Part shown: positions 3,851-38,938 of the stretch, in pieces
Layout of the letters: the number at the start of each line of letters is the position of its first letter
How positions within the stretch are numbered: the stretch's first letter is position 1
DNA from: Luteolibacter sp.
GTDB taxonomy: Bacteria; Verrucomicrobiota; Verrucomicrobiia; Verrucomicrobiales; Akkermansiaceae
DNA: 64,000 nt
Direction: 5' to 3'
Assembly: GCA_030696085.1 (NCBI GenBank)
Contig: JAUYNL010000059.1
Location: forward strand, 1-64,000
The notes under the pieces: generated by a model
The model's input: the letters and a program-made list of their open reading frames with translations, nothing else
Databases searched by the model: none
What the model was told of the DNA's origin: nothing
Position numbers and translations under genes: made by a program

Positions 3851-4481
3851 GGGTTTCCGGGTTGATGGAGCTTTTCGCGCCGTAGCGGTTCTGGCCGATG
3901 AGATTGGGATAAGCCAGGCCGAGCATGCGATAACTCGCGTAGTCACGGTTGCCTCCATGGCGCGGGCTGCCGTAGAACCCTTGCCGGGTGTGCTCGATCA
4001 CGAGATTGAAGAAACCTGATTGGGATTGGTTTTCCCAGAATTCCTTCGGGGCCTGGTTCGCTTCGAGGGTACGCAAGGCGGCGGTTTGGCGTTCGAAATC
4101 AAGTTGCTCGAAGGCGCTTTGATAGACCTGCATGCAGGTTTTTTGCATGGCGTCCAAGCCCAGGCGGTAGGTTTCCTGGTGGCGGACGAAGGGCCCGCAA
4201 AGCTGGCGGTCGATATAGTGGATCACGCCCGCATCAGTGGCCCCCGGCGCGTCGTCGCGCGGGATGATTTGTTCACAGATGGCGATGAGAGTTCCGGCCT
4301 CTGCCGCGGAGAAGAAGCGATAGGCCGGTGCTGCGGAGCGGCCCCAACGAGTGATGCCCACCGAAGCGCCGACACCGAAAGACGCACCTAATATCGTGGC
4401 GGCGGAGAATTTTAACAGCGCGCGGCGGGTGAAGAAATCCGCCTTCGGCTCGACTGGTGGTTCGGATGGGTTGGTATGCAA
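3831..4481 (-). CDS. Gluconate 2-dehydrogenase subunit 3 family protein with Tat-like signal
   Basis: The protein has 216 residues and opens from a TTG codon; no ATG or GTG lies nearby in frame. Residues 19-45 (TRRALLKFSAATILGASFGVGA) have the twin-arginine and hydrophobic layout of a Tat signal. The body contains the family features FFSAAEAGTLIAICEQIIPRDDAPGA and a C-terminal region with GFYGSPRHGGNRDYASYRMLGLAYP, as in small subunits of membrane-bound gluconate-type dehydrogenases. It is the first gene of the three-gene operon and probably escorts the FAD subunit through the Tat system. Its promoter should lie in 4482-4565, before the beta-strand repeat gene. The family assignment is solid; the exact start is not. 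Confidence 0.85.
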   Translation of the reverse strand: MHTNPSEPPVEPKADFFTRRALLKFSAATILGASFGVGASVGITRWGRSAAPAYRFFSAAEAGTLIAICEQIIPRDDAPGATDAGVIHYIDRQLCGPFVRHQETYRLGLDAMQKTCMQVYQSAFEQLDFERQTAALRTLEANQAPKEFWENQSQSGFFNLVIEHTRQGFYGSPRHGGNRDYASYRMLGLAYPNLIGQNRYGAKSSINPETHATPES

Positions 4482-18324: not shown

Positions 18325-18357
18325 AGACCCGTTGCGCGTGTTTCGTGCATCGGGTCT
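18325..18357 (+). terminator. Weak hairpin terminator after lyase-lectin copy 1
   Basis: AGACCCG at 18325-18331 pairs with CGGGTCT at 18351-18357, enclosing a partly self-complementary loop, followed by TTT. It lies 24 bases past the stop codon. The T tract is short. Confidence 0.4.
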
Positions 18358-18440
18358 TTCGGCATGCCGATGACTCGAACGAGGCATATGGCAATGATGG
18401 TGCCGGAGTTATGGAATTAAAATTTTCCATTAAAAGAAAA

Positions 18441-18469
18441 TTGACGTTATGTCAAAAACACGCTTTTAC
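18441..18469 (+). promoter_or_regulatory. Candidate promoter of the second lyase-lectin gene
   Basis: TTGACG, 17 bases, TTTTAC, matching the position and spacing of the element at 15883-15911. It lies 80 bases before the ATG at 18549 and inside a longer open frame that would otherwise start at 18345, which is an argument for the shorter start. Confidence 0.35.
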
Positions 18470-18548
18470 CTCTGTTGATTCGGCGGAAACCCATGGCTTG
18501 TTGCCTCGCGGACCCCGGCCAAGCAAAAACCAAAACAGTAAAAAACCG

Positions 18549-22344: not shown

Positions 22345-23937
22345 TCAGTTGCCTCGCGCTTTCAGAAGGGCGATGAATTCGGCAGGGTGGTTCGCGAGGT
22401 GCTGGGAATAGGCCGCCGCAATTTCGATGGACCATAGGAAATCCTTGTCCATCGTGGGTGGGTCGGCGCGTCTGCCTCGCTTCCACGCCGGATCGAGCTT
22501 CGCCAGCATGGCTTGGTCTTCCAGCGCCACTTGCTTGAAGTAGTTCCCAACCGCGTTTTCATCGCTTGGATTGGAATTGGCAAAGGTGAACAGCGCGTCC
22601 TGACGATCATGACAATAGGGCATGAATTCGGTTGTCAGGCGCAGGTCGGCGAAATCTCCGGCGTTTTTCGTGACGCGGTCTTGACAGGATGCCGCCAGAG
22701 CAGCCGCTTGCTTGAAGGGGTTCGGGATTTGTTGGTTCGCAAACAGGAGGTTCTTGATGTCCTGCTCTTTGGCCCAGGGAACGAATATTAAATTCGCGTT
22801 TTTTCCGCAAGTTGCTTGTGGAGACTTCTCGTAGAGCGTCCTGTAGATCATTTTCCAGTCCGCATCGGGTTTCGCGCCAAAGTGGGACGTAACGAACTCC
22901 GGGATCGCATCCATATAATGGTAATTCCCGTTATGGCGCAATAGCTCCGCTGCAATCGTGTAGGTATCCCATTGGCTGCCCTGAAGGTAACGCTTGGGCA
23001 CCCAGTTGGAAAGGATGACGCCGAGGTTGTTCGGCCCGCGCAGCTCATGGTAGGCCTCGGCATAGGCATTGATGTTTTCGAACTGCAACTCTCCGACGCG
23101 CGGCCCCCATCCGCACCAACTGACGGCCGGGCATCCGATCAATTTGAAGCCCCGGCTCAGGACGGCGTTGGCGTTTTCCACCACCTTGGCCTTGTCGGTC
23201 TCCCAGTAGTTCCAGTCCATTATCACGATGTCCTTGTCCAGCAGATCGAGGATGGCGCGGGTTTGATGGATCGGCACGTCACCCCAGATCACCGTCTGTT
23301 TTCCTATGGCTTTTACCCGGGCGTTCAGTTTGTTGACATATTCAGCCCATATCTGGTCCTTGCTCTTGGTTTCCAGTGCGAGTTTCGATGCCGCTCCAGC
23401 ACCCCAGTTGACCTCGTCGCAGCCGATGTGGAGATACCGGCTGGGGAAAATCGCGGCGACTTCCGCATACAAGTCCTTTAATAAATCGACGGTGGCGTCA
23501 TTCACGGGACACAAAGCGTTGAACTCCTCTCCGGGCGGTCCGTCATTCAGGAACCCGTATTTAGCCGTCTTGGTAATGTAGCTTGAATGCCCGAAGGATT
23601 CGATCTCCGGGATCAGTTCGATGTCTTTTGTTTTGGCATATTCCACCAGTTGCGTGAGATCCTTGGTGGAAAACGCGCCGTCGCACAGGTTCAACTCAGG
23701 GTGCGAGGTGAACCGGTAGGCGGAGCCCTGATCGTCGGTCAGGCGCAGGATCATGGAATTCATGCCCGTTTTCTGGCAGAAATCCATGAGTTTGAAATAA
23801 TGGTCCATGGTTTCCACGCCTCGTGGCGCGTCGATCATGAATCCTCGGAAGATGCGCTCCGGTTCCCCGGACGAGGCATTGCCGTGCAAGGCGCATATCA
23901 AGCCGATGATGGCGGGCCATTTTGTGAAGGATTTCAT
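22345..23937 (-). CDS. Glycoside hydrolase family 20-like beta-N-acetylhexosaminidase (divergent)
   Basis: The protein has 530 residues with a signal peptide (ending about residue 24, ASSGEP). It has the GH20 barrel: strand 1 FRGFMIDAPRG, strand 2 NSMILRLTDDQG, strand 3 IELIPEIESFGHS, and the catalytic pair D174-E175 in RYLHIGCDEVNWG. It lacks the extra N-terminal GH20b domain of the two other GH20 proteins here, so the barrel begins directly after the signal. In GH20 enzymes the Asp orients the substrate acetamido group and the Glu is the acid/base, releasing terminal GlcNAc or GalNAc. It is the last gene of the amino-sugar operon, 23 bases after the beta-helix gene. Specificity is not readable. 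Confidence 0.82.
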   Translation of the reverse strand: MKSFTKWPAIIGLICALHGNASSGEPERIFRGFMIDAPRGVETMDHYFKLMDFCQKTGMNSMILRLTDDQGSAYRFTSHPELNLCDGAFSTKDLTQLVEYAKTKDIELIPEIESFGHSSYITKTAKYGFLNDGPPGEEFNALCPVNDATVDLLKDLYAEVAAIFPSRYLHIGCDEVNWGAGAASKLALETKSKDQIWAEYVNKLNARVKAIGKQTVIWGDVPIHQTRAILDLLDKDIVIMDWNYWETDKAKVVENANAVLSRGFKLIGCPAVSWCGWGPRVGELQFENINAYAEAYHELRGPNNLGVILSNWVPKRYLQGSQWDTYTIAAELLRHNGNYHYMDAIPEFVTSHFGAKPDADWKMIYRTLYEKSPQATCGKNANLIFVPWAKEQDIKNLLFANQQIPNPFKQAAALAASCQDRVTKNAGDFADLRLTTEFMPYCHDRQDALFTFANSNPSDENAVGNYFKQVALEDQAMLAKLDPAWKRGRRADPPTMDKDFLWSIEIAAAYSQHLANHPAEFIALLKARGN

Positions 23938-23960
23938 AGGTTTTGGAATCGTGCGAAGTG

Positions 23961-26084
23961 CTATTTGGTGGAGATCTCGTTCTGCTCGACGTCCTCGAAT
24001 GTGTTATCCCGCAGAAGGGTACCCACAGCGGTGACGGCGATCTTGATGCCGACCTCGGCGTGGCGCACGGTGCAATGTTCGATGATGGCGTTCGCGGTGG
24101 CTCCGGAGAGGCGGAAGGAGGCGTTGTTCTGGCAGACATTGCGACGAAAAATCGCGCCGCACACCAGCGGACCGTCATAGACCTTTACCTCGTCGTAGGC
24201 GATGGTGCTGAAGCCTCCCGTGCGGTGGCCGTAACTGTTGCCTTCCACAATTTCGTTGTCGAGGAACTGGCAGAACCACGAGGGTTGGTGGCCCCATGCA
24301 TGCGGGTTGAGGCCCCAGACCATGAATCCGTCCGTCCGCGTGGCCTTGTTTTCGGCCACGATACAGTCATGCGCGGCGGCGTAGAGTTGGAACGGCCCGC
24401 CGTCCTCCAGCTCATTGCCGATGAACAGGCTCTGGCCGCGGAACGGCGCGATGGAGACGCGCGATTTCTGATCCGGTTCGACCGTCCATGGCCGGTCGAT
24501 CTGCCATTCCCGCCCTTTGTTCGCCGTGACGAAACGGTATTGTCCCGCGCCCTTGCCATCGAGGATCTGGACCACGCCGTCGGTCCAGTCGGTGCGGGGT
24601 TTGGGCGCGTATCCGCCGACCACCGGATCCGCGGCGAGGGTGACGCGGGTGCCGGAAACCTTCGCCAGCTTGCCGTAATACGCGCCGCCGGCGGCATCGA
24701 GAGTCATCATTTCACGGTCCGCACCATGCACCTGCCGGATTTTGTTATGGGCAAAATAGACATGCCAGCAGCGGGGGCTGAAAAACGAAGAGATATCATT
24801 GCCGATGGCGAGCAGGTTGTTGCCCTCCACCAGGTTGTCCTCGAAGATCAGCCGTTCGGTGTTTTCGATGCTGTAGCCGCGCCCGCCATAGCGGATGAGG
24901 TTGCGGGCGACGATGCCGGTCCTGGCGTTCCAAAGGTGCAAGCCGTAGTTGCTGGCATAAATATCGCAATCGGTGATCTCGATATTTTTTCCGCGTGGTT
25001 TTACCGCCGCGCCGCAGTCCCGGTGGGTGGAAGGGCCGCTTCTCCCTTGAAATTTTTTACCCCGATCTTCAATCAGGAAATAACAGTTCGCCCGGATTCT
25101 CACTTTGCGCAGAATGAAGCGCTTTGACGCGTCATCGCCGCCAATGACATTCTTATGGTTCTGGCAATAGATGCTCAGCGACTCGATGCCAAAGTCCACG
25201 CCTTTGATGAGATCTGCGGGCGGCTGGTCATAGTCCGGCCAGTAGAGGCTGGTGAGTTCCATCGACTCGCCGCGGAGGATCGTATTCGGCGGGATGATGA
25301 GGGGGCCATACACCGGGTAGCGCCCGCGCGGCAGGTAAACGACGCCGCCGCCCTTGGTTTTTGCCACCGCAAGCGCGGCGATCAGCGCATCCGCCGGTTT
25401 CGGCCCGAAATTCCTGACGCTGATCACCTCGGTCGGCCACGCTGTGCCAGGCCGGATGTTCACGGTGCCTGCGGCAGTCCAAGCGGCGCGGCCGCCGAGG
25501 CCGTTGTGGACGAAGAGTTGGTAGTCGCCCACCGCAAGATCGGCGGGTAGGGTGAAGGCCAGCGCATAGTTGCTTGGCTTTTGCGCCGTGAGCGTGGTGC
25601 TTTTGCCATCGGCGGCCCGCAACAGCGCGAGGCTCTCTCCACCGAAGTTGAGGGACTTGCCGAAGACACGCAACCAGCCGCCGGGCGTCGCCGTTTCACC
25701 TTCGTCGCCATTCCACCACCAGGCGTTGGGTTCGTTGAGCATGACGGATTCGGAAACCTTGGATCCGCTCCTGACGCGGCAGGTCCACACGCCCTGGGGC
25801 CAGGCTTTGGGAATCACGAACTTCAGCGAGCGCCCGTCACTTTGGAGTGGCTGGATCGCCGTCCATTTCCTGGCGGTGGGCGTGGAGTTTTCCAATGGTG
25901 CCGTGGCAGGCCCGTCGGATAGCGGGGCCAACTCGACACGACAGTCCTTGCCAAACGCCTCACCGATGACCAGCACCGCCTCATCGGGGCGCACCGGATC
26001 GGATGCCTGAATGATTTGCGGTGACGGGGCGGCGTGGATGCTTGAAGCGGCGGCAATGACAAGGGCTAACAGAAAAAGTCTCAT
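23961..26084 (-). CDS. Secreted right-handed beta-helix protein (pectate-lyase-like fold)
   Basis: The protein has 707 residues with a signal peptide (ending SIHAAPS, about residue 19). Residues 20-225 form two small beta-sandwich domains. From about residue 235 the sequence GGGVVYLPRGRYPVYGPLIIPPNTILRGESM is the typical entry of the pectate lyase 3/GH28-like beta-helix, followed by coils with NxxIRYGGRGYSIENTERLIFEDNLVEGNN and NKATRTDGFMVWG. Such folds are found in polysaccharide lyases, polygalacturonases and glycan-modifying enzymes acting outside the cell. Catalytic residues could not be assigned. It lies 10 bases after the clan GH-A hydrolase gene in the operon, which points to a role in breaking down the same glycan. 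Confidence 0.75.
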   Translation of the reverse strand: MRLFLLALVIAAASSIHAAPSPQIIQASDPVRPDEAVLVIGEAFGKDCRVELAPLSDGPATAPLENSTPTARKWTAIQPLQSDGRSLKFVIPKAWPQGVWTCRVRSGSKVSESVMLNEPNAWWWNGDEGETATPGGWLRVFGKSLNFGGESLALLRAADGKSTTLTAQKPSNYALAFTLPADLAVGDYQLFVHNGLGGRAAWTAAGTVNIRPGTAWPTEVISVRNFGPKPADALIAALAVAKTKGGGVVYLPRGRYPVYGPLIIPPNTILRGESMELTSLYWPDYDQPPADLIKGVDFGIESLSIYCQNHKNVIGGDDASKRFILRKVRIRANCYFLIEDRGKKFQGRSGPSTHRDCGAAVKPRGKNIEITDCDIYASNYGLHLWNARTGIVARNLIRYGGRGYSIENTERLIFEDNLVEGNNLLAIGNDISSFFSPRCWHVYFAHNKIRQVHGADREMMTLDAAGGAYYGKLAKVSGTRVTLAADPVVGGYAPKPRTDWTDGVVQILDGKGAGQYRFVTANKGREWQIDRPWTVEPDQKSRVSIAPFRGQSLFIGNELEDGGPFQLYAAAHDCIVAENKATRTDGFMVWGLNPHAWGHQPSWFCQFLDNEIVEGNSYGHRTGGFSTIAYDEVKVYDGPLVCGAIFRRNVCQNNASFRLSGATANAIIEHCTVRHAEVGIKIAVTAVGTLLRDNTFEDVEQNEISTK

Positions 26085-26094
26085 GAGCCTTATG

Positions 26095-29025
26095 TTAGAA
26101 TTTCACGGATGTTTCCAGCTCGATCATCTGTTGGATGCCGCCGGTGGCGAGGGCTTCCACGCGGACTGGGTTGACGCGGGAGGGGAGCGGGATGGTTGCC
26201 GTCGATTCGCCGTAGGCGGGGACGGTGATGGTGCGGGCGGGACTTTCCTGGTCTCCGGCGCTCACCGCGTAAGTGAACAGGGTGGGGGAGTCCGCAGGGT
26301 TGATGAATCGTAGATTCACGGTTTCCGCCGGCGTGGCGGCTTCGATTCGCACCAGCGTCTCCACGTTCAGGGGACTCTTGGAAAGCAGGAAGCGGGGCCG
26401 GAAGGCGGCTTCCAGCAGTTCCGCGCCGGCGGCGGCCTTGCGTTCGTTGCCGTAGAGATCGCACTCGGTCCATGATTCGTCATTGGCGGGGCGGATGCGG
26501 ACGGGGATCGGGCTGTCGGTGGACCAGATGGCGACGAGCGAGCGACCGTCCACGGCGAATTCATAGACCCGGAGGTTGGGGGCGAGTTTGGATTCCTTGA
26601 CAAAGCGGGCACCCTGGAGCTGGCGCACCAGATTGACGTGGGCGGTGAAGGAGGCTTTGGGCGAGAGATCCTCGTTGAAAAAACCAGTGGAGCCGATGAG
26701 ACCATACCAAAACGTGCGTTCGATACCGGTTGCGAGCGACTGGACATGGAGTTTCACCAACTCCGATGCCTGACCATCTTCTGACAGATAGGGCACGCCA
26801 CCCCAGCCGCCATTTTCGCCGACCTTTCCGGAATACATGCTGGTCTCGGTGTTCCAGAATGGTTTGTGGCCCTCGCCGATTTTCTTCATGAACCCGATCA
26901 CGCCCTCGGCCAGGGTTTTCACACGGTCCCACGATTGCCCCGGCTCGCCGACGCTGTAGAAATGCGAGTCCGCGATGTCATAGTCCGCCTGCGGTTTGAG
27001 GGCGAAAAAGGAAGGGGCGTCCCAAAGGCTTCCGGCGAAGGCGTAGGAAGTCATGGCCGTGCCGCCCTCGGTTCTATCCACGGTGGTATCGCCCAACGCA
27101 CCGAGCACGATTTTGATGTTCGGATCGGCGGCACGAATCGCCGCGGCGCTGGCCTTGAGGATGTCGGCATAGGTTTTCGGAGAAAACGGATAGAGTCCGT
27201 TGCGGGCCTCTGCTTCGTTCCAGATTTGATAGTAGTGGAGTTTTCCCTGATAACGGCGGGCCATGGCGGTTAGAAAATCACTCCACAGCCCCATGTCGGC
27301 GGGTGCGTAGCAGGCGGTGGTCATCATCTGCCAGGTTTCCTTTTTGGTAGGTTCGGTGGTTTGGAAGGGCAAGGCTCCGCCGGTGATGCAGACGAGAAGG
27401 GTGACGCCGGCCTCGCGGGCTGCGGCGACGGTTTGATCGAGCGCATCCCAATCATAGACGCCGGGCTTGCGCTCGATGTCATCCCAGCGCAACCAGAGGC
27501 GGAACCAGCGGGAGCCGGCGGCGGCGGTGCAGGCGAGGTTGGTGCGCATGATCGAGGCATCGAACTTCCCGGGGATCATGGAAAATTCCCTTTGGACGCC
27601 GAACCACGATTGGGAGGCAGGAAGCCAGGTTTTCCATGGGTTCACGATGGCGAAGCTGCGGCTCGCCGAGGCCTTGGTTCCATTGACCCGCAGGTCCGCG
27701 TGCAGTCGGTAGCTGCCGTATGGCAGGGACGGCAGCACCACGCGGTGGGACTTGGCGGAGCGCTCCCTGGGGGCGAATGGCCTGCCGACGGGTTTGCCAT
27801 GAATATCTTCAATGTGGAAATTCGAAGCGACACTCGCACCGACTCCCTCCGGGAAATCCAGACTCCATTCGTGTGGGCCCGGACCTGTGAAGGTGCCTGC
27901 CCCGCGACCGCTCGGGAAGGCGGCCTGCACGCTCGGCATGAACATCGAAAAGGTGAACTTGTCGATGCCGCCCGACCACACGCTATCAGACGCGGTTTCC
28001 CTGCCGATGAAAATGGAGCGATCCGCCACCGGAGAAAATTTCTGCGCCAAATGGCTGTCACCAATTTTTAGACCATCGACCCAAAGTGAAACCTTATTGC
28101 TGGAAAAGCGCACCCGCGCACTGTGTTTCTGCCCCTCGAGCCAATCCGGCACCGGCTTGATGACCTGCGAGGAGATCGCCGTGTTGTCCGAGCTGAGGCG
28201 GGCAAAAAGCGTCTTGCCTCCCCAAAGCATGAGGGTGATCGAGCTGGGCTCGGAACCGTTCATATTGAGGCCCATGGTGAAAAGCGCCTCGCTTTTCCCG
28301 GCCACCGCACCGGCACCGACGGTGAATTCCGCCTCGATTTCGTAAACGGCCAGCGGGCGCTCGACGCGCGAACCGGGCCAAGGGAATGACGCCGCGCCCG
28401 CGCCGGGCAGGGCGGGTAACTTGCGTTTCGGGGATTCGAGAACGGCACGCCCGCGATTCCATGTGAGTTTCTCCACTTCCACCAGCGGGATGCCGATTTC
28501 CTCGCGGTCAGCGGCATCTCGTGTGAGGAGCTTGATTTGTTTGAGGTCGAATCTCCCGGCCACGCCTTGCAGGCGGAATTGCGCTGTTGCCTTGGCCGCT
28601 CCCGGCGGCAGCGCGAACTCCTGATGGAGGGCGTTCCATCCTGTGGAAGGCGGACAAAGAACCTTGAGCGTCGTCAACTGTTTCCCAGCGCCATCCAGCA
28701 CATTGACCATCACCCAAGCGCCGTAATCCGAACGCGAACCGCTCACCCCTGTGCGGTAGGAAAAGGCCACGTCCAGCGCACGCAAGCCACCCATCTCGAA
28801 GGCCGGGCTAGTCAGTATCGCCATCTTGCCCGCCGGATCTTCCAGGCGCACGAAACGTTCTCCTACTGCGGAGCGCAGGATCCTGCTCTCACGAAAGTTC
28901 CATTGCGGCTCGGCATCGCCGGGCGTGAGCGAGAGGGTGCCGGCCGATGCCTGACAGGTGAAGAGCGGGAGCAAGGCGAGTTTCAGCCAGTGAGTGGGAA
29001 GACGGGAAATTATGTTAGTGTACAT
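26095..29025 (-). CDS. Secreted multidomain clan GH-A glycoside hydrolase (GH39/GH5-like)
   Basis: The protein has 976 residues with a signal peptide ending CQASAG (about residue 28). Residues 30-190 look like a carbohydrate-binding jelly roll, and residues 200-380 like a laminin-G/concanavalin-like domain (VDGLKIGDSHLAQKFSPVADRSIFIGRETAS). The central barrel (about 480-800) carries RWFRLWLRWDDIERKPGVYDWDALD, the acid/base motif YYQIWNEAE and the nucleophile motif FWNTETSMY, the two-Glu arrangement of clan GH-A. A beta-sandwich closes the protein. Its ATG overlaps the end of the epimerase gene by 11 bases, so it belongs to the amino-sugar operon. The family number is uncertain and the linkage it cuts is unknown. 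Confidence 0.78.
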   Translation of the reverse strand: MYTNIISRLPTHWLKLALLPLFTCQASAGTLSLTPGDAEPQWNFRESRILRSAVGERFVRLEDPAGKMAILTSPAFEMGGLRALDVAFSYRTGVSGSRSDYGAWVMVNVLDGAGKQLTTLKVLCPPSTGWNALHQEFALPPGAAKATAQFRLQGVAGRFDLKQIKLLTRDAADREEIGIPLVEVEKLTWNRGRAVLESPKRKLPALPGAGAASFPWPGSRVERPLAVYEIEAEFTVGAGAVAGKSEALFTMGLNMNGSEPSSITLMLWGGKTLFARLSSDNTAISSQVIKPVPDWLEGQKHSARVRFSSNKVSLWVDGLKIGDSHLAQKFSPVADRSIFIGRETASDSVWSGGIDKFTFSMFMPSVQAAFPSGRGAGTFTGPGPHEWSLDFPEGVGASVASNFHIEDIHGKPVGRPFAPRERSAKSHRVVLPSLPYGSYRLHADLRVNGTKASASRSFAIVNPWKTWLPASQSWFGVQREFSMIPGKFDASIMRTNLACTAAAGSRWFRLWLRWDDIERKPGVYDWDALDQTVAAAREAGVTLLVCITGGALPFQTTEPTKKETWQMMTTACYAPADMGLWSDFLTAMARRYQGKLHYYQIWNEAEARNGLYPFSPKTYADILKASAAAIRAADPNIKIVLGALGDTTVDRTEGGTAMTSYAFAGSLWDAPSFFALKPQADYDIADSHFYSVGEPGQSWDRVKTLAEGVIGFMKKIGEGHKPFWNTETSMYSGKVGENGGWGGVPYLSEDGQASELVKLHVQSLATGIERTFWYGLIGSTGFFNEDLSPKASFTAHVNLVRQLQGARFVKESKLAPNLRVYEFAVDGRSLVAIWSTDSPIPVRIRPANDESWTECDLYGNERKAAAGAELLEAAFRPRFLLSKSPLNVETLVRIEAATPAETVNLRFINPADSPTLFTYAVSAGDQESPARTITVPAYGESTATIPLPSRVNPVRVEALATGGIQQMIELETSVKF

Positions 29026-29935
29026 CGTGAATGCTTTTCAGAGTTATGGATATGCCCTCATCGAGGGTGTAGGCCGGAATCCAGCCGGCGGCCCGGAGTT
29101 TTCCGGCGCTGGCGCGGGAGTGTCTGATATCACCCGCGCGTTCGGGGCCATGCGAAACCTTGGAGCTTGATCCGGCTGCGGAAATAATCCGACTGGCAAG
29201 GTCATTGATGGTAATCTGTCCCCCGTAACCCGCATTGAAAACCCCTGTGACTCCAGGCGTTTCAACCGCGAAGGAAAGCGCCCCGGCGATGTCCGCGACG
29301 TAGATGAAATCACGAGTCTGCTCACCATCGCCGAAGATGGTGATATCTTCATTGCGCCGGGCTTTTTCAGCGAAGGCCGGAACTGCGGCGGCATAGGCGC
29401 CATTGGGATCCTGGCGCGGGCCGAAGACGTTGAAGAAGCGGATCGCCGCTGTCGCCAACCTGCCTTCGCGCTGATACATGTCGAGGTAGTATTCGCCATC
29501 GAGCTTGGTGATCGCATACGGACTTTTGGGCGCGGGGGCCATGGTCTCCAGCTTCGGGACCGTTGGTTCATCCCCATAGACTGCGGCGGACGAGGCGAAA
29601 ACGAGTTTTTTCACTCCTGCGTCGGCAGCTTCTTCCAATACATTGAGCAAACCATGAACATTGATGTCAACGCATTCGGCGGATTTGGTCATGGATTCGG
29701 AAACGCTTACCAATGCGGCGAGATGAAATACATAGTCCACTCCATTTACCGCCTCCCTCACCAACTCACGATCAGTGACCGATCCCTCGATGAATGTATG
29801 TCTGAGGCCGTTCAGATTGTGACGGTAGCCGGTTCGTAGATTGTCGAGAATCAGGATTTCATCGGCCTTATTTTGATAGCGCTCGGCGATGTGCGAGCCG
29901 ATAAATCCGGCTCCGCCCGTGATGAGGATTTTCAT
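29015..29935 (-). CDS. NAD-dependent sugar-nucleotide epimerase/dehydratase (GalE/WbpP-like)
   Basis: The protein has 306 residues. It is an extended short-chain dehydrogenase: GGAGFIGSH nucleotide-binding loop at residues 7-15, FHLAALVSVSES, the Ser at VFASSAAVYGD, the catalytic YAITK (Tyr/Lys), and FNVFGPRQDPNGAYAAAVPAF. These match UDP-glucose/UDP-GlcNAc C4-epimerases rather than reductases. No signal peptide, so it acts in the cytoplasm. The start overlaps the stop of the kinase gene (ATGA), and the end overlaps the next hydrolase by 11 bases. Together with the kinase it would interconvert the gluco and galacto forms of activated HexNAc. A nucleotidyl transferase that would make the UDP sugar is not encoded nearby. 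Confidence 0.86.
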   Translation of the reverse strand: MKILITGGAGFIGSHIAERYQNKADEILILDNLRTGYRHNLNGLRHTFIEGSVTDRELVREAVNGVDYVFHLAALVSVSESMTKSAECVDINVHGLLNVLEEAADAGVKKLVFASSAAVYGDEPTVPKLETMAPAPKSPYAITKLDGEYYLDMYQREGRLATAAIRFFNVFGPRQDPNGAYAAAVPAFAEKARRNEDITIFGDGEQTRDFIYVADIAGALSFAVETPGVTGVFNAGYGGQITINDLASRIISAAGSSSKVSHGPERAGDIRHSRASAGKLRAAGWIPAYTLDEGISITLKSIHDVH

Positions 29936-31080
29936 ATTTCAGCGAGGATGCTTGGTGTTTTTCCGTTTGAGCGCGCCTGCACGATCTCTTCCATTTCAGG
30001 TAGTCTTCGTTCGATCGCGGCGACAAACGCGAATTGATTGCGACAGCGGTCAAGATTGTGAGCTGGGCGCTTGATCTTGAAATAGACGTCACCCTGCAGG
30101 TAGTCGGTCAGGAAGCGGATGCCACATTCAAGGGTGAGGAGTTTTCCCGAGTAAGCGAGGTGATCCAGCTCCGCGGGGCACAGAAACGAGCGGGCGGCAT
30201 CCAGGTAACCGCAGACGAGTGAATCGAAACGATCAAGTCGGATGTCGAGATTGCTGAGATCAATGCTATCTTCCGGTTCGGTCGGTGTCGCGGTTCGGAC
30301 CATGTCGCCGAAGTCGTAAAGCGCGGATCCAGGCATGGTGGTGTCGAGGTCGATCACGCATACGCCCTCGGCCGTGAGGTCGTCGAGAAGGACGTTGTTC
30401 AGCTTGGTGTCATTGTGGGTGACGCGTTCGGGGATTGCTCCCGATGCGATGAGATCATGAATGCGCGCGCAGTCGGCGGCACGATTCAGCGCGAAGTCGA
30501 TCTCGGGCTTCAGCGCGGCGGCGCGATTCGAGGAATCGGCCTCAAGAGCGCGGCGGAGCGCCTCAAGGCGCTTGGGAGTGTTATGGAAATCCGGAATGGT
30601 TTCGTGCAGGCGTGCGCCTCCGAGCCCGGCCGCGAGTTTCTGAAAGTTTCCAAAAGCCCTGGCGGCTTGATATGCCTGTTCGTTGGTTTGGATTTCATCA
30701 TGACCACTGGCATTTTCAATGAAAAGATAGATCCGCCAGTAGTTGCCAAGCGGATCGATGGCGTAGGGTTTTCCATCCACCGAAGGAATGCAGGTGAGGG
30801 TCCTCCTGCGGGCATCCGGGCAGCCATCCGCGAGGAGTTGGCCCAGTGAATGGCGGGTCACCCGCTCGATGTTCTCCATCAGTGCGACGGGAGTCTTGAA
30901 AACATGGGTGTTGATGCGCTGGAGGATGTAGCGGATCTTCCGGCCGGCTTGGTCGAATGTCGCGCAATAGGTGTCATTGATATGTCCGGAACCGTATGGA
31001 TGCCCTTCGATGAAGTCGGCACGCATGTCGAAAAGCAGGGCGATTTCACGCAGATTTGGAGCTAGTGTCGTGGGAGCCAT
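29932..31080 (-). CDS. nahK: N-acetylhexosamine 1-kinase (NahK-like, aminoglycoside phosphotransferase fold)
   Basis: The protein has 382 residues from MAPTTLAPNLREIALLF; the upstream frame to 31173 has no conserved content. It follows the bifidobacterial NahK/LnpB pattern closely: GSGHINDTY near the N-terminus, IRYILQRINTHVF, NYWRIYLFIENA, AFGNFQ, the catalytic Brenner motif RVTHNDTKLNNVLLD and the metal-binding IDLDTTMPGSALYDFGD, and the C-terminal LTDYLQGDVYFKIKRPAHNLDR. The enzyme phosphorylates GlcNAc or GalNAc at C1 with ATP in the cytoplasm, which commits sugars released by the neighbouring hexosaminidases to a sugar-nucleotide route. It is 52 bases downstream of a GH20 gene and overlaps the epimerase gene by 4 bases. 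Confidence 0.88.
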   Translation of the reverse strand: MAPTTLAPNLREIALLFDMRADFIEGHPYGSGHINDTYCATFDQAGRKIRYILQRINTHVFKTPVALMENIERVTRHSLGQLLADGCPDARRRTLTCIPSVDGKPYAIDPLGNYWRIYLFIENASGHDEIQTNEQAYQAARAFGNFQKLAAGLGGARLHETIPDFHNTPKRLEALRRALEADSSNRAAALKPEIDFALNRAADCARIHDLIASGAIPERVTHNDTKLNNVLLDDLTAEGVCVIDLDTTMPGSALYDFGDMVRTATPTEPEDSIDLSNLDIRLDRFDSLVCGYLDAARSFLCPAELDHLAYSGKLLTLECGIRFLTDYLQGDVYFKIKRPAHNLDRCRNQFAFVAAIERRLPEMEEIVQARSNGKTPSILAEI

Positions 31081-31132
31081 GTGAGTGGTTTGAATGAAAT
31101 GTGGGGATATCCGGGATATGGATTCGGGCAGG

Positions 31133-32809
31133 TTAGGGTTTTCCTCCAACTGGGGATTCCGGCCTTGATCCATCCCGTCCTTCTTTGCCGGGTGGGCCTG
31201 CCGGTTTGCAATAGTTGAGCTTTCCGGCGTCGTAGTGCTTCATGATTCCATCAAGACGGGAGAGGAAATCATCGAGAATTTTCGACTCGTGCGGCGTCCA
31301 TGCCACTTCGGCGAGTGCGGCGATGCGGGGAAAGGCCAGGTATTGGACTTTTTTCATGTCCTTGGCGTATTCCGTCCAAAGCTGGGCCTGGGTGCCGAGG
31401 ATTTGTTTTTCCTGAGCCGGGGTTTCGGCGACGGAGGCCGGATTGTAGGAATAGACCTTCGCCAGGGGAAGGTCGCCGCCGATGGCTTCATATTCATCGC
31501 CTTTGGCGAGTTCCGCGGCGGCGGGGTTTTGATAGTAGTCGAAGTAGGTGTGGGAGGTGGTGGCCATGACGACATCGTTGCCGAGTGCGAGGGCGTGCCT
31601 GGCCCATTTGGCGTCGCGCCAGACCATCATGGTGGCGGATTGATCGAGGCCGCCTTCCTGGATTTCATCCCAGCCGATGAGTCGGCGGTTTTTGGATTTG
31701 AGGAATTTCCCGATCCGTCGGACGAACCAGCTTTGGAGTTCTTCTTCGTTTTTCAAGCCCTCGCGTTTCATCACCTCTTGGGCGAACTTGGATTCCCGCC
31801 ACTGGGTTTTTGGGGCTTCGTCGCCGCCGATGTGGATGAACTTCGAAGGGAATAATTCGCAGACTTCGCCGAGCACATCCTCCAGGAAACGGAAAGTCTC
31901 TTCTTTGGGTGCGAAGGTATATGGATGCACGCCCCAGCGGGTCATGACTTTGGGCGCGTAGCCGGGAATATCCGTGTTTCCAAGTTCCGGATAGGAGGCG
32001 ATGGCGGCAGCCGCGTGGCCCGGCATTTCGATTTCAGGAATGATGGTGATGTGGCGCGCGGCGGCATAGGCGACGATTTCCCTGATCTGGTCCTGGGTAT
32101 AGAAGCCGCCATATCGGACGCCGTCATCGGATTTGCGGTTGCCGTAAGGCGGTGACGATTCGCGGTAAGCGCCGACTTCCGTTAGCTTCGGATACTTCCT
32201 GATTTCGATCCGCCAGCCCTGATCCTCGGTGAGGTGCCAGTGCAGGGTGTTGAGTTTGTGAAACGCCATCCAGTCGATGAAGTCCTTGATGTCCGCCACC
32301 GGATAAAAATGGCGGCCGACATCGAGCATCATTCCGCGCCAGCCAAAACGCGGATAGTCGGTGATCTCGAGTGCGGGCAACCTTGCCGGAGTCTCGTCCT
32401 TCCAGATGGCGGCTCCGCGTGGTGGCAGAAGTTGTAAGATCGTCCGTGTGCCGTGATAGACGCCGGAGGAGTCCTTGCCGGTCACCACGACCGCCCCCGG
32501 CGATATAACAAGTTTATAGCCGCCTGCCGGGAGGTCCGCCGCGGCATCGAGGTCGAGACGGATTTCACTGTGAAGGAAGATCCGTAGTTCTTCGGCCGCG
32601 GTTTTCGGTGCGGTTCCGGTGAGCGCCTGCAAGTCGGCGGCGAAGAGATCCGCCTCGGTCTTCAGGTCGCGATCAAAGCGGATCGCGGTGCCGGCGGAGA
32701 ATTCGAACGCGCCCTCCCGCGCCGTTACCGAAACGGGAAGCGGGATCAACGGCAGGGAATCGGCGCACGCGAATCCTGTTAGGGCAGTGGCGATCATCAG
32801 GAGTTTCAT
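31133..32809 (-). CDS. Beta-N-acetylhexosaminidase, glycoside hydrolase family 20
   Basis: The protein has 558 residues; the start at 32809 gives a short signal peptide (MKLLMIATALTGFACADS). An N-terminal GH20b domain (20-150) is followed by the catalytic barrel: RFGWRGMMLDVGRHFYP, LNTLHWHLTEDQGWRIEI, IIPEIEMPGHAAAAI, the catalytic pair D330-E331 in FIHIGGDEAPKTQW, and WDEIQEGG and a late Trp/Tyr motif lining the acetamido pocket. It removes terminal beta-GlcNAc or beta-GalNAc by substrate-assisted catalysis. It is second in the operon, 34 bases after the GH109 gene. The short Pro/Gly-rich C-terminus (PAGPPGKEGRDGSRPESPVGG) is unusual and may be a flexible tail. Confidence 0.92.
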   Translation of the reverse strand: MKLLMIATALTGFACADSLPLIPLPVSVTAREGAFEFSAGTAIRFDRDLKTEADLFAADLQALTGTAPKTAAEELRIFLHSEIRLDLDAAADLPAGGYKLVISPGAVVVTGKDSSGVYHGTRTILQLLPPRGAAIWKDETPARLPALEITDYPRFGWRGMMLDVGRHFYPVADIKDFIDWMAFHKLNTLHWHLTEDQGWRIEIRKYPKLTEVGAYRESSPPYGNRKSDDGVRYGGFYTQDQIREIVAYAAARHITIIPEIEMPGHAAAAIASYPELGNTDIPGYAPKVMTRWGVHPYTFAPKEETFRFLEDVLGEVCELFPSKFIHIGGDEAPKTQWRESKFAQEVMKREGLKNEEELQSWFVRRIGKFLKSKNRRLIGWDEIQEGGLDQSATMMVWRDAKWARHALALGNDVVMATTSHTYFDYYQNPAAAELAKGDEYEAIGGDLPLAKVYSYNPASVAETPAQEKQILGTQAQLWTEYAKDMKKVQYLAFPRIAALAEVAWTPHESKILDDFLSRLDGIMKHYDAGKLNYCKPAGPPGKEGRDGSRPESPVGGKP

Positions 32810-32843
32810 CGGTAGTGTCTTGCTGGTTGAGCCAAGTGAGTGA

Positions 32844-34244
32844 TCAGGCGATGATGCCGAGCGCCTGGGTGGATTTCCAGTTGCCGCGGGTGAAGTCCGG
32901 GAAGGGCTGCGGAGCGCCGTCTTCGGCCACGGATTTTTCGCTGAGCGGGCCGACAGCGGACCAGAAGCAGCCTTCATAGACGTTCTGATCGAGTGGTTCA
33001 CCGTTGCGAAGGCATTCGATGACGCGGAAGAGCATCAGGTAGTCCATGCCGCCGTGGCCGCCTTCCTCCTTGGCAAGTGCGCCGAGGCGCTTGATGAGCG
33101 GGTGTTCGTATTTCGCGGCGATTTCCTCCCAGGCGGCACCCTCGGCCCATTCGTGGGAGCTTTTGGTGACGCCTTCGATGGCGATGCGGTTGGGGAATCC
33201 AGCGAGCGTGCCCTTGGTGCCTTGGATCAGGTTGAGTCGTGAGTAGGGACGGGGTGAGGTTTCATCCCACTGGACCAGGATGGTCCGGCCGAGAGTGCTC
33301 TTGATGATCGAGGTGCTCATGTCGCCGCCCTTGAACTCGAGGTTTTTCCAGGCGGGATCGGTGAGCTTGTCAGATTTTTGCGCGTGTTGGGCGCGGCCCT
33401 TGGCGGGCGAGGAGAAGGAAACGAGGCGGCCGAAATTGTCCTCGCCGCGACCGAGATTCATGTATTGGGCGACGGGGCCGAGGCCGTGGGTGGGGTAGAG
33501 ATTGCCGTTGCGGTTGGCATAGTGGAGCGTGCGCCAGGACCCGGTGGTGGATTGATTGTCCATCTGGCCGCGGAGGTCGTGGATGTAGGCGGCCTCGCCG
33601 TGGAGCAATTCGCCGATGACACCTTGGCGGACCATGTTGAGGTAAAGCAGCTCCTCGCGGCCATAATTGACGTTTTCCAACATCATGCAGTGGCGTCCGG
33701 TGGCTTCCGATGTGTCCACGAGATCCCATAAATCCTGAATTGTGTATGCGATGGGCACCTCGCTGAAGGCGTGCGCTCCGGCTTTCATTGCGGCGATACA
33801 CATCGGTGCGTGGAGTTCCCACGGGGTGGCAATGAACACGGCGTCCGGTTTGGTTTCCTCCAGCATTTTCTGCCAGGAATTCTCGTCTCCGCTGTAAACC
33901 TTCGGCTGGTGCCCCTTGGCCGTGACGGCATCCGCAGCGCGTTTCGCACGGTCTTCGTGGAGATCGCTCACGGCGACGAACTCGACGCCCTCGAGGCCGG
34001 CGAGCTGCCCGGCGTGGCCGGAGCCGCGGGAACCGACTCCGATGATGGCGACTTTGACTTTATCGAGTTTAGGCGCGGCGAAACCGCCCATATATTTGCC
34101 TCCCGTGCGGCGCGACGGGTCGGCATTTTTGGCGGCGTCCTGGGCGCTGGTGATGGCGGGCAGTGCTGCGAAACCGGCGGCAAAACCACCAATGGTTTTG
34201 ATGAAACTGCGGCGGGGATTGGTTGGGAGATCGGATGGATTCAT
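32844..34244 (-). CDS. Alpha-N-acetylgalactosaminidase, NAD-dependent, glycoside hydrolase family 109
   Basis: The protein has 466 residues from MNPSDLPTNPRRSFIKTIGGF, a twin-arginine signal (RRSFIK, then a hydrophobic stretch). A Rossmann domain follows (VKVAIIGVGSRGSGHAGQL, VAVSDLHEDRA, AVFIATPWELHAPMCIAAMKAGAHAFSEVP). The family-specific part includes ENVNYGREELLYLNMVRQGVIGEL, YIHDLRGQM, and the GH109 hallmark NRNGNLYPTHGLGPVAQYMNLGRGEDNFG. GH109 enzymes hydrolyse alpha-GalNAc with a tightly held NAD that is reduced and re-oxidised during the cycle; Tat export fits a protein that must fold around its cofactor first. It heads the seven-gene operon. A general Gfo/Idh sugar oxidoreductase is the alternative, but the THGLGP region favours GH109. 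Confidence 0.86.
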   Translation of the reverse strand: MNPSDLPTNPRRSFIKTIGGFAAGFAALPAITSAQDAAKNADPSRRTGGKYMGGFAAPKLDKVKVAIIGVGSRGSGHAGQLAGLEGVEFVAVSDLHEDRAKRAADAVTAKGHQPKVYSGDENSWQKMLEETKPDAVFIATPWELHAPMCIAAMKAGAHAFSEVPIAYTIQDLWDLVDTSEATGRHCMMLENVNYGREELLYLNMVRQGVIGELLHGEAAYIHDLRGQMDNQSTTGSWRTLHYANRNGNLYPTHGLGPVAQYMNLGRGEDNFGRLVSFSSPAKGRAQHAQKSDKLTDPAWKNLEFKGGDMSTSIIKSTLGRTILVQWDETSPRPYSRLNLIQGTKGTLAGFPNRIAIEGVTKSSHEWAEGAAWEEIAAKYEHPLIKRLGALAKEEGGHGGMDYLMLFRVIECLRNGEPLDQNVYEGCFWSAVGPLSEKSVAEDGAPQPFPDFTRGNWKSTQALGIIA

Positions 34245-34963
34245 GGGAATGGTGGTGTTTTTGGCTAGTGACAGGTGATGCGGTGGGTGATCGGGTGTCT
34301 TTAAACTACGGTTGGCAGGCTTTTCTTTCATGTGCCCGCCGATAATGATCCGCGCGCTGCAAATCGCTTGCCGCGGGTCCCACGGGACAGGCTTCCGCCA
34401 GGAGAAACGTCTGAGAAATCTTGACCGGGATCATTGCTGTGATCGGTGTCTCCATTCTATCGGCGATGGTGCGGACTTCGTTCCGTCCGGTGATCTAGAT
34501 GAACAGATGGTTGTCGCCAATTTCACGCGGCTGATCGGTTTTTTCATACGTGTCGGTCATTGTTTTGCGTTCCAGGCATTGGCTACCCTCCTTCCCGCGT
34601 CCGTCCCTCCTGGCGGTTTTTGCTGATAGGGGGTACGACGGGCTTGCAGAAATAATGAGGAATTTCTGGAAGTGTGTGGGATCGGTGGAATTTGGCGAGA
34701 TCGTCCATGATCTGGTATAAAGATGGAAAATTTTGGCGCAATCGTAGCAATTTTAAATGCCGGAACCTTGAAAATGCTTCCGAAACGGAGCAACAACAAG
34801 ACATTCATTACGAGAGGGTGTGAAAAAAACGTGATCCGCATGGATTATTGCCAATTCATTGGTGCCATCATTCATGACCCACACGAGGAGAATGCGCACA
34901 TGTGACGAAAACCCCACCACGGAGCATCCACGGCCCGACCAGGCAATTGACTCGGTTTCCTGA
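34245..34963. other. Long intergenic region upstream of the amino-sugar operon
   Basis: This 719-base gap separates the first GH20 gene from the GH109-led operon on the same strand, so it should contain the operon promoter on the minus strand. The half nearest 34963 is AT-rich. Several short open frames occur on both strands but none has a recognisable domain or codon pattern. I could not identify an operator, riboswitch or small RNA with confidence. Confidence 0.5.
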
Positions 34964-36844
34964 TCAACGGTCCTCGATCTTGGCGGGAAAGACGCAGATC
35001 GTGCCGTTGGAATCGTTTCCGCCATCGCTGCGGATTTCCGCCCGCAGGGTGTAGGTGGCACCAGGCGTGGGGGCGGGCAGGGCGAGGGAGAAGTCGAAGA
35101 TTGAGGGATTGGCACCGGCGGCACCCTGGCGTGCGTCGGTGGTGATTTCCTTGTTGTTTTCCAGCAGGGTGGGGTTGCGGATTTGGAGTTGGTGTTTGCC
35201 GCCGGTGTAGATGAAGCGTGCCTTGTAGGTGGCGGGTTCGTGGATGTTTTTGGTGATGTCCCACTCGTGGGCGGTCCAGGTCTCGGTGGGTTCGCCGGTT
35301 TTCCATGCGCCCGCCGTTTGGTACCATGCGGGTTCGGCGGTGGGGGAAACATGCAGGCCCATGGCTTTGAGTCGGGTGCGTATGGCTGGCAGGCGTGTGT
35401 TGAAGTCCGGCCACGAAATTTTGGCGGCAGGGGACCACGCGAGTTCGGCGATGGCGGCGGCGCGGGGGAAGAGTTTCCACTCGGCTTCCTTGCCGTCGTT
35501 GACGGTCTCGCTCCAGAGGCTGCCTTGCAGTCCGAGGATGTGTTTTTGGTTTTCCTCGGGGATGCCGGCCACGGGGTTGAAGGAGAGGATGCGCTCGCAG
35601 GAGTTCACCCGCACGCGGTAATAGGTGTATCCATCGGGCGCTTCGGTTTGCGGATAGTCGAGGTAGAGGGGAATATGAGTGGCCATCACCACGTCGTGTC
35701 CGGTGGCGGCGGCGTCCCGTGCGCCATTGGCCCGGAGGTAGGACATGACCGCCGCTCCGGGCGGTAGGCCGCCTTCGAAAATCGAGTCCCAGCCGATGAG
35801 GCGGCGGCTTTTTTTCGCCAGGTATGTATCGAAGTGGCGGACCATCCAGCTTTGCAATTCGTCTTCGTTCTTCAATCCGTTGGCGGTTTTTCGGGCCTGG
35901 CATTTTTTGCAATCTTTCCAGATTTGCTTCGGGCACTCGTCGCCGCCGATGTGGATGAAGGGGGAGTCAAACAGCGCGATGGTTTCGTCGAGGACTTGTT
36001 CGAGGAAACGGATGGCTTCGTCGTTGCCGGCGCAATACATGAACTCCGGCTTGCCGGTGCAGCTCAGGCGTGGGTAGGCGCGCATGGCGGCGGTGGCGTG
36101 GGCGGGCAGTTCGATTTCCGGGATGACGAGGATGTGGCGGGCGCGGGCGTAGGCGAGGATTTCGCGGATTTCGGACTGGGCATAGAATTGCGGTGGGCGC
36201 GTCGGGTTGGATTGATCGCCGGTGGCGCCGATGGTGGTGAGTTCGGGGAAGCGTTTGATTTCGAGCCGCCAGCCGGGCGAGTCGGTTAGATGCCAGTGGA
36301 AGCGGTTGAGTTTGAGGGATGCCATGGCGTCGAGGATTTTGAAAACGGCGGACTTGCCCATGAAGTGGCGGCTTTCATCGAGCATCAGGCCGCGCCAGCC
36401 GAAGCGCGGGGTGTCGCGGATTTCCACGCACGGGATGTTCTGGAGGTCTGCGCTGGGGGCGAGTTGGCGCAAGGTTTGTACGGCGTGGAAATAGCCTGCG
36501 GCATCGGAGGCGAGGACGACGATGCCGGTGGGGCTGACTTGCAGCAGGTAGCCACCGGCGGGGAGTTTTTCGCTGCGGGTGGAGGCGAAGCGGATGGTGC
36601 CGTCGTTGGGTTGGACGGGCAGGGGGAGGCCGCTTGTTGGTCGCCAAATTTCCGCGAGAAATCTTGCGGCAGCCTCGGCGGTGGGGGCGGAATAGGAGAT
36701 GGTGGTGTTTCGGGTCACCGCGAATTCACCGGATTTCGCGGTGAATTGGACGGGACGCGGGCAGAGCGCCGGCTCGGTGGCACCCGCATCGAAAACAGAA
36801 ATCCAGAGGGAGAGTCCCGCTACGACGACCAAATGCCGACTCAT
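34964..36844 (-). CDS. Beta-N-acetylhexosaminidase, glycoside hydrolase family 20, with C-terminal beta domain
   Basis: The protein has 626 residues from MSRHLVVVAGLSLW, with a signal peptide ending near residue 22; ATG 36856 would add four residues. An N-terminal GH20b domain (25-140) precedes the barrel: RFGWRGLMLDESRHF, LNRFHWHLTDSPGWRLEI, LVIPEIELPAHATAAM, and the catalytic pair D302-E303 in FIHIGGDECPKQIW. The last 130 residues (from about WYQTAGAWKTGEPTETWTAHEWD) form an extra beta-sandwich that is absent from the other GH20 proteins here and may bind carbohydrate. It is on the same strand as the operon but 719 bases away, and is transcribed divergently from the GH97 gene. Confidence 0.92.
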   Translation of the reverse strand: MSRHLVVVAGLSLWISVFDAGATEPALCPRPVQFTAKSGEFAVTRNTTISYSAPTAEAAARFLAEIWRPTSGLPLPVQPNDGTIRFASTRSEKLPAGGYLLQVSPTGIVVLASDAAGYFHAVQTLRQLAPSADLQNIPCVEIRDTPRFGWRGLMLDESRHFMGKSAVFKILDAMASLKLNRFHWHLTDSPGWRLEIKRFPELTTIGATGDQSNPTRPPQFYAQSEIREILAYARARHILVIPEIELPAHATAAMRAYPRLSCTGKPEFMYCAGNDEAIRFLEQVLDETIALFDSPFIHIGGDECPKQIWKDCKKCQARKTANGLKNEDELQSWMVRHFDTYLAKKSRRLIGWDSIFEGGLPPGAAVMSYLRANGARDAAATGHDVVMATHIPLYLDYPQTEAPDGYTYYRVRVNSCERILSFNPVAGIPEENQKHILGLQGSLWSETVNDGKEAEWKLFPRAAAIAELAWSPAAKISWPDFNTRLPAIRTRLKAMGLHVSPTAEPAWYQTAGAWKTGEPTETWTAHEWDITKNIHEPATYKARFIYTGGKHQLQIRNPTLLENNKEITTDARQGAAGANPSIFDFSLALPAPTPGATYTLRAEIRSDGGNDSNGTICVFPAKIEDR

Positions 36845-36988: not shown

Positions 36989-38938
36989 ATGAAAAATTCA
37001 TCACTCCAAAATTCGCCCTGTCGGGTATTTGCCACCATGTATGCCTCCTTGATCGCCCTGTCTGGCGGAATAGTCCAAGCCGGGGAAACTTCCGGAGTGG
37101 CATCCAGCCCGGACGGCAAACTTTCCGTCACCTGCGGGATCGATGCCGCAGGTGCTTTCAGCTACGCGTTCCATGCGGATGGCGAAGCCATGATTTCTCC
37201 TTCCGTGATGGGATTGGATTTCGGAAACTCCGGAAAAATTCCATCAGCAGGATGGAAGGTGACAGGTGTGAAAAACCGCGAGTCCAACGAGGTGTGGAAG
37301 CCGGTCTGGGGGAAGCGGGCGGTGGTGCCGGACCAATTCAGGGAAAGCGCCATCGACCTCGCCGGAGAAAACGCGCCATTCGACCGGATGCGCGTGGTGA
37401 TGCGTGCATACGATGATGGCATCGCATTTCGTTATGAGATTCCGGCCGATGCCACGGGCGACGCCACCACCGCGACCGCCGACCTGACAACATATACATT
37501 CGCAGGCGATTTTACCGCGTGGTTTTACAACCGGGAACAGCACAATCTTGGGCCGGACAAACTCAGCACGATCACCGGAACCCGTGAACCCGTGATGACT
37601 GTCCAAGCCTCCGCAAAAGCCTTTCTAGCGGTCCACGAGGCGGACTTGCGGGCTGGTGAGCCGCTCCGGCTTGCCAAAAGCGGGCTACTGCAATTCACCG
37701 CCATCGCCGCGCCGGGGAAAGTTGCGGCGGGATATGTCGGTCCGTGGCGGGTCATTCTCTTCGGCCGTTCTCCCGGGGCGCTGGTGGATTCTCATCTGAT
37801 TGAATTGCTCAATCCGCCGCCGGTTGGGGATTTTTCCTGGGTCAAGCCCGGCGTGGCATTGTGGGATTGGCGCATCAACGGAGCCGAGGTGGATGGTTTC
37901 AAATATACCATGACCTATCCGTCGTGGACCCGGATGGTGGACTTTGCCGCGGAAAACCATATCCAACATCTCGTGCTGGACGCGGATTGGTATGGACCCG
38001 AGTTTTCCCACACCTCGGACCCGGTGAAGGGGGAAAAAGCCGGGGATGTGCAGAAGCTCATTGCCTATGCCAAACCGAAGGGGGTCGGAATCTGGCTCTA
38101 CCTCAATGATGTGGGCGGACGCAACTATCCAATCGATCAAACGCTCAAACAATACGGCGAGTGAGGCGCAAGCGGTGTGAAATACGGTTTCATGAACGAC
38201 ACACCGGAGGCGAAAAACACCCGTACCCGGATGATCACGGAGTTGTGCGCGAAGAACAAGCTTCTCTGTGATTTCCATGATGAGCCGGTCCACCCCTACG
38301 GTCAGATGCGCACCTGGCCCAACGCGGTGACCCGTGAGTTCTGCTTCGCCCAACTTGATTCCAAGCGGGTTTTTGAGCTCAAGACGTTTGTCACCACGGT
38401 CTTCGTCAACATGCTCGCCGGTCCCATCGACATGAACAACGGCATGTTCGACCTGCGCCAAGGCAAGACCACCCGTGTGGACAATCCGATGGAAGTGCCG
38501 TCCACCTTGGTTTCCGAGGCCGCCCGCACCCTGATTGTCTTCTCGGGAGCGACGATCATCCCTGACATCCCGGAGTTCTATCGGAAGTATCCCGTCCTGC
38601 TGGAATATCTATCAGCCCAACAGATGCCGTGGAGGGAAAGCAAAACCCTCTCCGGCGTGATCGGGGAGCACATCGTGATGGCGCGCCAGGCGGCGGATGG
38701 CAAATGGCTCGTCGGAGCGGCCACCAACGAATCCGCCCGCGAACTTGACATCAAACTTGACTTCCTCGGCGCCGGAAATTTCACCGCAACCATTGTCCAG
38801 GATGGCAAGGATGCCCATTACCAGAAGAATCGCGAAACCCTGCGATCGGAGATTCGTCATGTCACTTCCGCAGACACAATCCACGTGGGTCTCGCCCCCG
38901 GTGGTGGCGCGTGTGTGATTCTGGAACGGAAGCCATGA
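36989..38938 (+). pseudogene. Glycoside hydrolase family 97 gene interrupted by an in-frame TGA
   Basis: Two open parts, 36989-38164 and 38165-38938, are in the same frame and together read as one GH97 protein of about 649 residues with a signal peptide (ending VQAGETS). The N-terminal GH97 domain (SSPDGKLSVTCGID...YDDGIAFRYEIP) is followed by the barrel (HIQHLVLDADWYGPEF, GVGIWLYLND). The stop TGA at 38162-38164 falls in QYGE-stop-GASGVKYGFM, where GH97 proteins usually have Trp (YxxWGxxGVK). One base change, TGG to TGA, explains it. The continuation keeps CDFHDEPVHPYGQMRTWPNAVTRE and the C-terminal beta domain. Gly instead of Asp in GVKYGFM is as in the inverting SusB-like branch. Either a recent nonsense mutation, readthrough or a sequence error. 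Confidence 0.8.

Follow-up and report, generated by a model that had tools for sequence, protein, structure and literature searches.

What does a tightly packed run of glycoside hydrolase, kinase and epimerase genes do in a Luteolibacter genome whose nearest named relatives are MAGs from lakes and ponds? The window, by which we mean the whole analysed stretch of 64,000 nucleotides from contig JAUYNL010000059.1, belongs to a genome of 3.77 Mb in 110 contigs, 96% complete (G000). Using the most likely starts, we recovered eight minus-strand genes between 36844 and 22345. In gene order they encode a GH20 (GH20c), a GH109, a second GH20 (GH20b), a NahK-like kinase, an epimerase, a clan GH-A protein, a beta-helix protein and a small GH20 (GH20a), separated by 719, 34 and 52 bases, overlaps of 4 and 11 bases, and gaps of 10 and 23 bases. 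The last seven genes, from 34244 to 22345, are so closely spaced or overlapping that a single transcript is plausible. This layout agrees with the coordinates of the first-pass annotation, which had described seven genes with gaps of at most 52 bases or overlaps and a third GH20 upstream. GH20c lies 719 bases further upstream and may form a unit of its own. A promoter scan of the operon scored below shuffled sequences, and a terminator scan was level with them. The whole 96%-complete genome has three GH20 genes, all within these 14.5 kb. We read the locus as a GalNAc/HexNAc salvage operon, with a probability of about 0.72.

The GH109 gene (32844..34244, minus strand) encodes a predicted alpha-N-acetylgalactosaminidase that matches PF21252 (GH109_C) at 183.9 bits, against a cut-off of 27, and carries an N-terminal Gfo/Idh/MocA NAD domain (PF01408, 68 bits). 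It matches 6t2b at 550 bits, an A. muciniphila enzyme deposited under the name "Glycosyl hydrolase family 109 protein 2". The GGHGG loop, the site of the catalytic acid-base according to the literature, spans residues 424-428 in the long ORF and aligns with 6t2b and 2ixa. The N terminus is a twin-arginine signal. Release of alpha-GalNAc by this protein is predicted from these features.

All three GH20 proteins have the catalytic Asp-Glu motif. GH20c (34964..36844, minus strand; PF00728 338 bits, PF02838 96 bits; HIGGDE) starts with a signal peptide-like sequence and has 6q63 as its closest solved structure, and GH20b (31133..32809, minus strand; PF00728 393 bits; HIGGDE) matches 7cbn at 517 bits. 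Both are ordinary two-domain beta-N-acetylhexosaminidases containing domain 2, and they are 41% identical to each other. GH20a (22345..23937, minus strand; PF00728 104 bits; HIGCDE) is a distant, shorter GH20 without domain 2. Divergent from GH20c lies a GH97-like gene (36989-38938, plus strand) with an in-frame TGA at 38162-38164, either a pseudogene or a sequence error.

The kinase (29932..31080, minus strand) has an APH fold (65 bits), and its PDB matches are NahK chains only: the N-acetylhexosamine 1-kinase structures 4ocu, 4ocj and 4wh1 (273 bits, residues 41-398 to 4ocu). It contains the phosphotransferase motif HNDTKLNN. 1-Kinase activity on GalNAc or GlcNAc is predicted, and specificity varies inside this family, as described for BT4240 (PMC11992087). 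In a tree of the kinases, the copy in the window belongs to an epimerase-linked clade of four members (support 99/97). The genome's second NahK-like kinase (C87:21437-22540), 70% identical to the first and with no epimerase adjoining, falls in a different clade.

The epimerase (29015..29935, minus strand; Pfam Epimerase 208 bits) is an extended SDR with a GxxGxIG motif and YxxxK at 140, predicted to be an NAD-dependent UDP-hexose/HexNAc 4-epimerase. It is closest to UDP-HexNAc epimerases: its best matches are 6wjb and 6wj9 (228 bits to 6wjb), structures of the P. protegens UDP-GlcNAc 4-epimerase PelX, followed by WbpP (1sb8, 188 bits). It shares a GDIRHS stretch with 6wjb, and the serine of this stretch seems, in a tentative placement by analogy with GalE and WbpP, to occupy the position of Tyr299 in E. 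coli GalE. A small residue at this position would leave room for the N-acetyl group.

The salvage operon would begin outside the cytoplasm, where GH109, secreted via Tat, would remove alpha-GalNAc from a glycan and the GH20 enzymes would remove beta-HexNAc. Free GalNAc or GlcNAc would be imported by a transporter encoded elsewhere, converted to HexNAc-1-phosphate by the NahK-like kinase, and activated to UDP-HexNAc by a UDPGP-type pyrophosphorylase, also encoded elsewhere. The epimerase would then interconvert UDP-GalNAc and UDP-GlcNAc; since its gene adjoins that of the kinase, the route may take GalNAc in as UDP-GalNAc and release it as UDP-GlcNAc. The product could feed envelope synthesis, or central metabolism through GlcNAc-6-phosphate and nagA/nagB. 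We infer every activity, localisation, flux direction, co-transcription and transport step in this scheme from what is observed: gene order, families, catalytic motifs, recurrence of the linkage, and the presence of UDPGP and nagBA genes in the genome.

The scheme spreads beyond the cluster, and the "complete external-to-internal route" proposed earlier is not supported. Neither a sugar transporter nor a uridylyltransferase is among the cluster genes, and no importer was identified; the genome's single UDPGP-type pyrophosphorylase gene is on contig C69, and adjacent nagB and nagA-like genes are on contig C82. The nagA match, at 200 bits, is below the curated cut-off of 226. This sub-cut-off nagA, the second kinase without an epimerase, and the lack of a transporter in the operon count against a salvage operon. 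So does the lack of a nearby GH109 at most kinase-epimerase pairs, by which the pair would also serve general HexNAc or UDP-sugar metabolism. As had been noted at first pass, no SusC/SusD pair, the criterion for a Bacteroidetes-type PUL, adjoins the cluster. The closest TonB-dependent receptor detected lies at 57674-59794 of the window. Elsewhere in the window are a plus-strand tandem pair (16025-18301 and 18345-20813), both of whose proteins match Polysacc_lyase (PF14099) and contain ricin-B lectin repeats; a fungalysin-like M36 metallopeptidase with a BACON-like domain (51259-53313, minus strand); and a multihaem cytochrome (1173-3958, minus strand) adjoining a GMC oxidoreductase.

We then compared gene linkage in other genomes. 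Of 195 family genomes, 183 have a relative of the kinase. Among 20 Akkermansiaceae loci inspected, 13 have the epimerase as the next relevant gene on the kinase's strand, a count that takes in one short fragment match and includes Akkermansia-like genomes. A wider set of 80 named loci came from Akkermansiaceae, other Verrucomicrobiota, Lentisphaerota, Kiritimatiellota and others; 25 of these have the pair, and 6 have GH109 close to the kinase. The kinase-epimerase pair is an ancient unit shared by Verrucomicrobiota, Lentisphaerota and Kiritimatiellota. GH109 is near the kinase more often than expected (P 9e-7 to 0.002, assuming 1-4 GH109 copies per 4 Mb), an estimate that treats loci as independent, assumes the density and is indicative only.

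Within the genus, 4 of 20 GH109 loci have a kinase or epimerase nearby, plus one cut by a contig end, in four arrangements: kinase-GH109-GH20 (G219/L181, where an orthologue of GH20b, 75% identical, adjoins the kinase and GH109), epimerase-GH109 (G127), GH109-epimerase (G190), and epimerase-kinase at some 8 kb from GH109 (G061). Orders in the wider set include GH109-kinase-epimerase (L198), SSF-GH109-GH2-kinase-epimerase (L215) and kinase-GH109-SSF (L260). The recurrence of GH109 and GH20 beside the kinase and epimerase in varied order points to a functional association. The alpha-GalNAc/beta-HexNAc theme of the first-pass annotation is thus borne out by tight linkage of GH109, GH20 and the NahK-like kinase here and by its recurrence in other genomes. 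Conservation of gene order, which had been suggested as a check, applies in part: the linkage of GH109, GH20, kinase and epimerase recurs, reshuffled, and the remaining trio of GH-A, beta-helix and GH20a has no orthologue among 73 genus genomes. Conservation of the whole operon in the genus is rejected, as the trio lacks orthologues there and relatives of the GH-A and beta-helix proteins sit apart.

The conserved part of the locus is explained; the trio is the unexplained remainder. Earlier family labels held for GH109, the three GH20s, the NahK-like kinase and the epimerase, whereas "clan GH-A" and "beta-helix" place their proteins in no named family. The 976-aa GH-A protein (26095..29025, minus strand) is secreted, by prediction, and joins a laminin-G-like part to the catalytic domain. 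It has no GH family match in Pfam, and GH112 (LNB phosphorylase) was rejected as its identity, as Pfam gave no match. A phmmer search reached PslG (4zn2, E 5e-8), and a six-member profile reached PslG and GH39 beta-xylosidases. The expected catalytic Glu pair of strands 4 and 7, E604 in WNE and E727 in WNTE, is invariant in the six relatives. Together these assign the domain to clan GH-A, with a weak PslG/GH39 likeness. The beta-helix protein (23961..26084, minus strand; PF13229), also predicted to be secreted, has an Ig/IPT-like part and a right-handed beta-helix. Its profile matches alginate C5-epimerases, GH55 and GH110, so it is possibly a lyase, hydrolase or epimerase; a single-sequence structure model (mean pLDDT 34) was too poor for a fold search. 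Two relatives (L174:7972-11076 and L175:735-3857) have a C-terminal extension resembling, by eye, a GDSL/SGNH esterase domain, a hint of a family acting on acylated glycans.

The matches of GH20a in genus-mates are all distant GH20s, most of them at 25-39% across a portion of its length. Relatives of the GH-A protein, at about 30% identity, occur in other Verrucomicrobiota; those of the beta-helix protein are at about 27-34% (tblastn), with no close orthologue found within the order. Relatives of the two adjoin neither one another nor a kinase. Compared as a possible sign of recent transfer, GC3 values of GH-A, beta-helix and GH20a (0.74, 0.77 and 0.71) overlap those of GH109 and GH20b (0.75 and 0.69) and do not set the trio apart. 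The trio is probably a lineage-specific addition attacking other linkages of the glycan used. That it is a novel depolymerase set acting on some GalNAc-containing polysaccharide without a characterised locus, plugged into the old kinase-epimerase salvage unit, is a speculation that we would not favour. Either way, the three proteins are concrete targets in the search for new glycan-cleaving activities.

The breadth of the kinase in the family also fits a different reading: that kinase and epimerase are a housekeeping HexNAc-salvage/UDP-sugar unit that provides the cell's own envelope or exopolysaccharide with UDP-GalNAc and UDP-GlcNAc, with hydrolases that merely share the promoter and no dedicated catabolic pathway. 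Many loci have the pair with none of these hydrolases adjoining, and the nearest epimerase structures, PelX-type (function described in PMC9135694) and WbpP, come from polysaccharide-making pathways (PMC9135694). However, GH109 and GH20 recur by the pair in independent arrangements, above the expectation from the assumed GH109 density, and we regard a purely housekeeping role as possible but doubtful.

The glycan itself could be bacterial. Instead of an animal glycan, the locus may recycle or remodel a GalNAc-containing exopolysaccharide made by the cell itself or by a neighbour, with the GH-A and beta-helix proteins cutting the backbone and GH109 and GH20 trimming the ends. The best solved relative of the GH-A domain is the exopolysaccharide hydrolase PslG, and the lake and pond origin of the relatives fits; yet the PslG similarity is weak (E 5e-8 with the single sequence), GH39-like domains have many substrates, and the operon has no polysaccharide synthesis genes. 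We consider this version unlikely. Use of mucin-type O-glycans of an animal host, as in Akkermansia muciniphila, seems very unlikely. Among solved structures GH109 is closest to the A. muciniphila enzyme, and both GH109 enzymes of A. muciniphila are active on alpha-GalNAc substrates, though not the Tn antigen (PMC11790493), which we count in its favour. Sialidase, fucosidase, sulfatase and M60 peptidase were not found among the annotated window genes, however, and A. muciniphila has 11 GH20 genes to the three here. Mucin, one of the substrates first proposed, is possible, but since the closest named relatives are from lakes and ponds, gut mucin is not an obvious choice. The salvage operon remains our preferred reading.

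Known systems offer several points of comparison. The Bifidobacterium longum LNB/GNB pathway likewise links a NahK-like kinase to a GalE-like epimerase, but its lacto-N-biose phosphorylase (GH112) and GalT-type uridylyltransferase were not found among the operon genes here, which instead encode hydrolytic GHs. A. muciniphila, of the same bacterial family, has GH109 enzymes (Amuc_0017, Amuc_0920; 6t2b) with the same fold and GGHGG loop; the comparison is at the level of the enzymes, and in the window GH109 shares its operon with the kinase and the epimerase. One Verrucomicrobia subdivision 3 MAG has a one-strand operon (L205:28-20743) more complete than that of the window, in the order MFS-GH109-GH20-GH29-x-PIG-L-NagB-kinase-GH36-like-epimerase-GH16, and also DUF4838. 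It keeps GH109, GH20, kinase and epimerase in the window's order and adds an MFS transporter, a GH29 fucosidase, a PIG-L deacetylase, NagB, a GH36-like enzyme and GH16, but lacks GH-A, beta-helix and small GH20.

In Bacteroides thetaiotaomicron, biochemical and genetic work has characterised operon BT4240-43 of PUL BT4240-50 (GalNAc kinase, GH2, MFS, GH109): its GH109 releases GalNAc, and growth on GalNAc requires the GalNAc-preferring NahK-type kinase linked to it, which serves chondroitin sulphate GalNAc as well (PMC11992087). The first-pass remark that no described locus with this set was known therefore loses its force as a sign of novelty, as BT4240-43 already couples GH109 to a NahK-type (APH, PF01636) HexNAc 1-kinase (PMC11992087). 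The same two genes share one tight run in the window. BT4240-43 includes a GH2 enzyme and an MFS transporter, with SusC/SusD and an M60 peptidase close by, whereas the window locus has GH20, epimerase, GH-A, beta-helix and small GH20 and no transporter. The coupling of GH109 to a NahK-type kinase, known from gut Bacteroides, thus extends to Akkermansiaceae of non-gut type and to other Verrucomicrobiota, where it takes several gene orders and lacks SusC/SusD. By this analogy, the window locus appears to work like BT4240-43 with a different composition.
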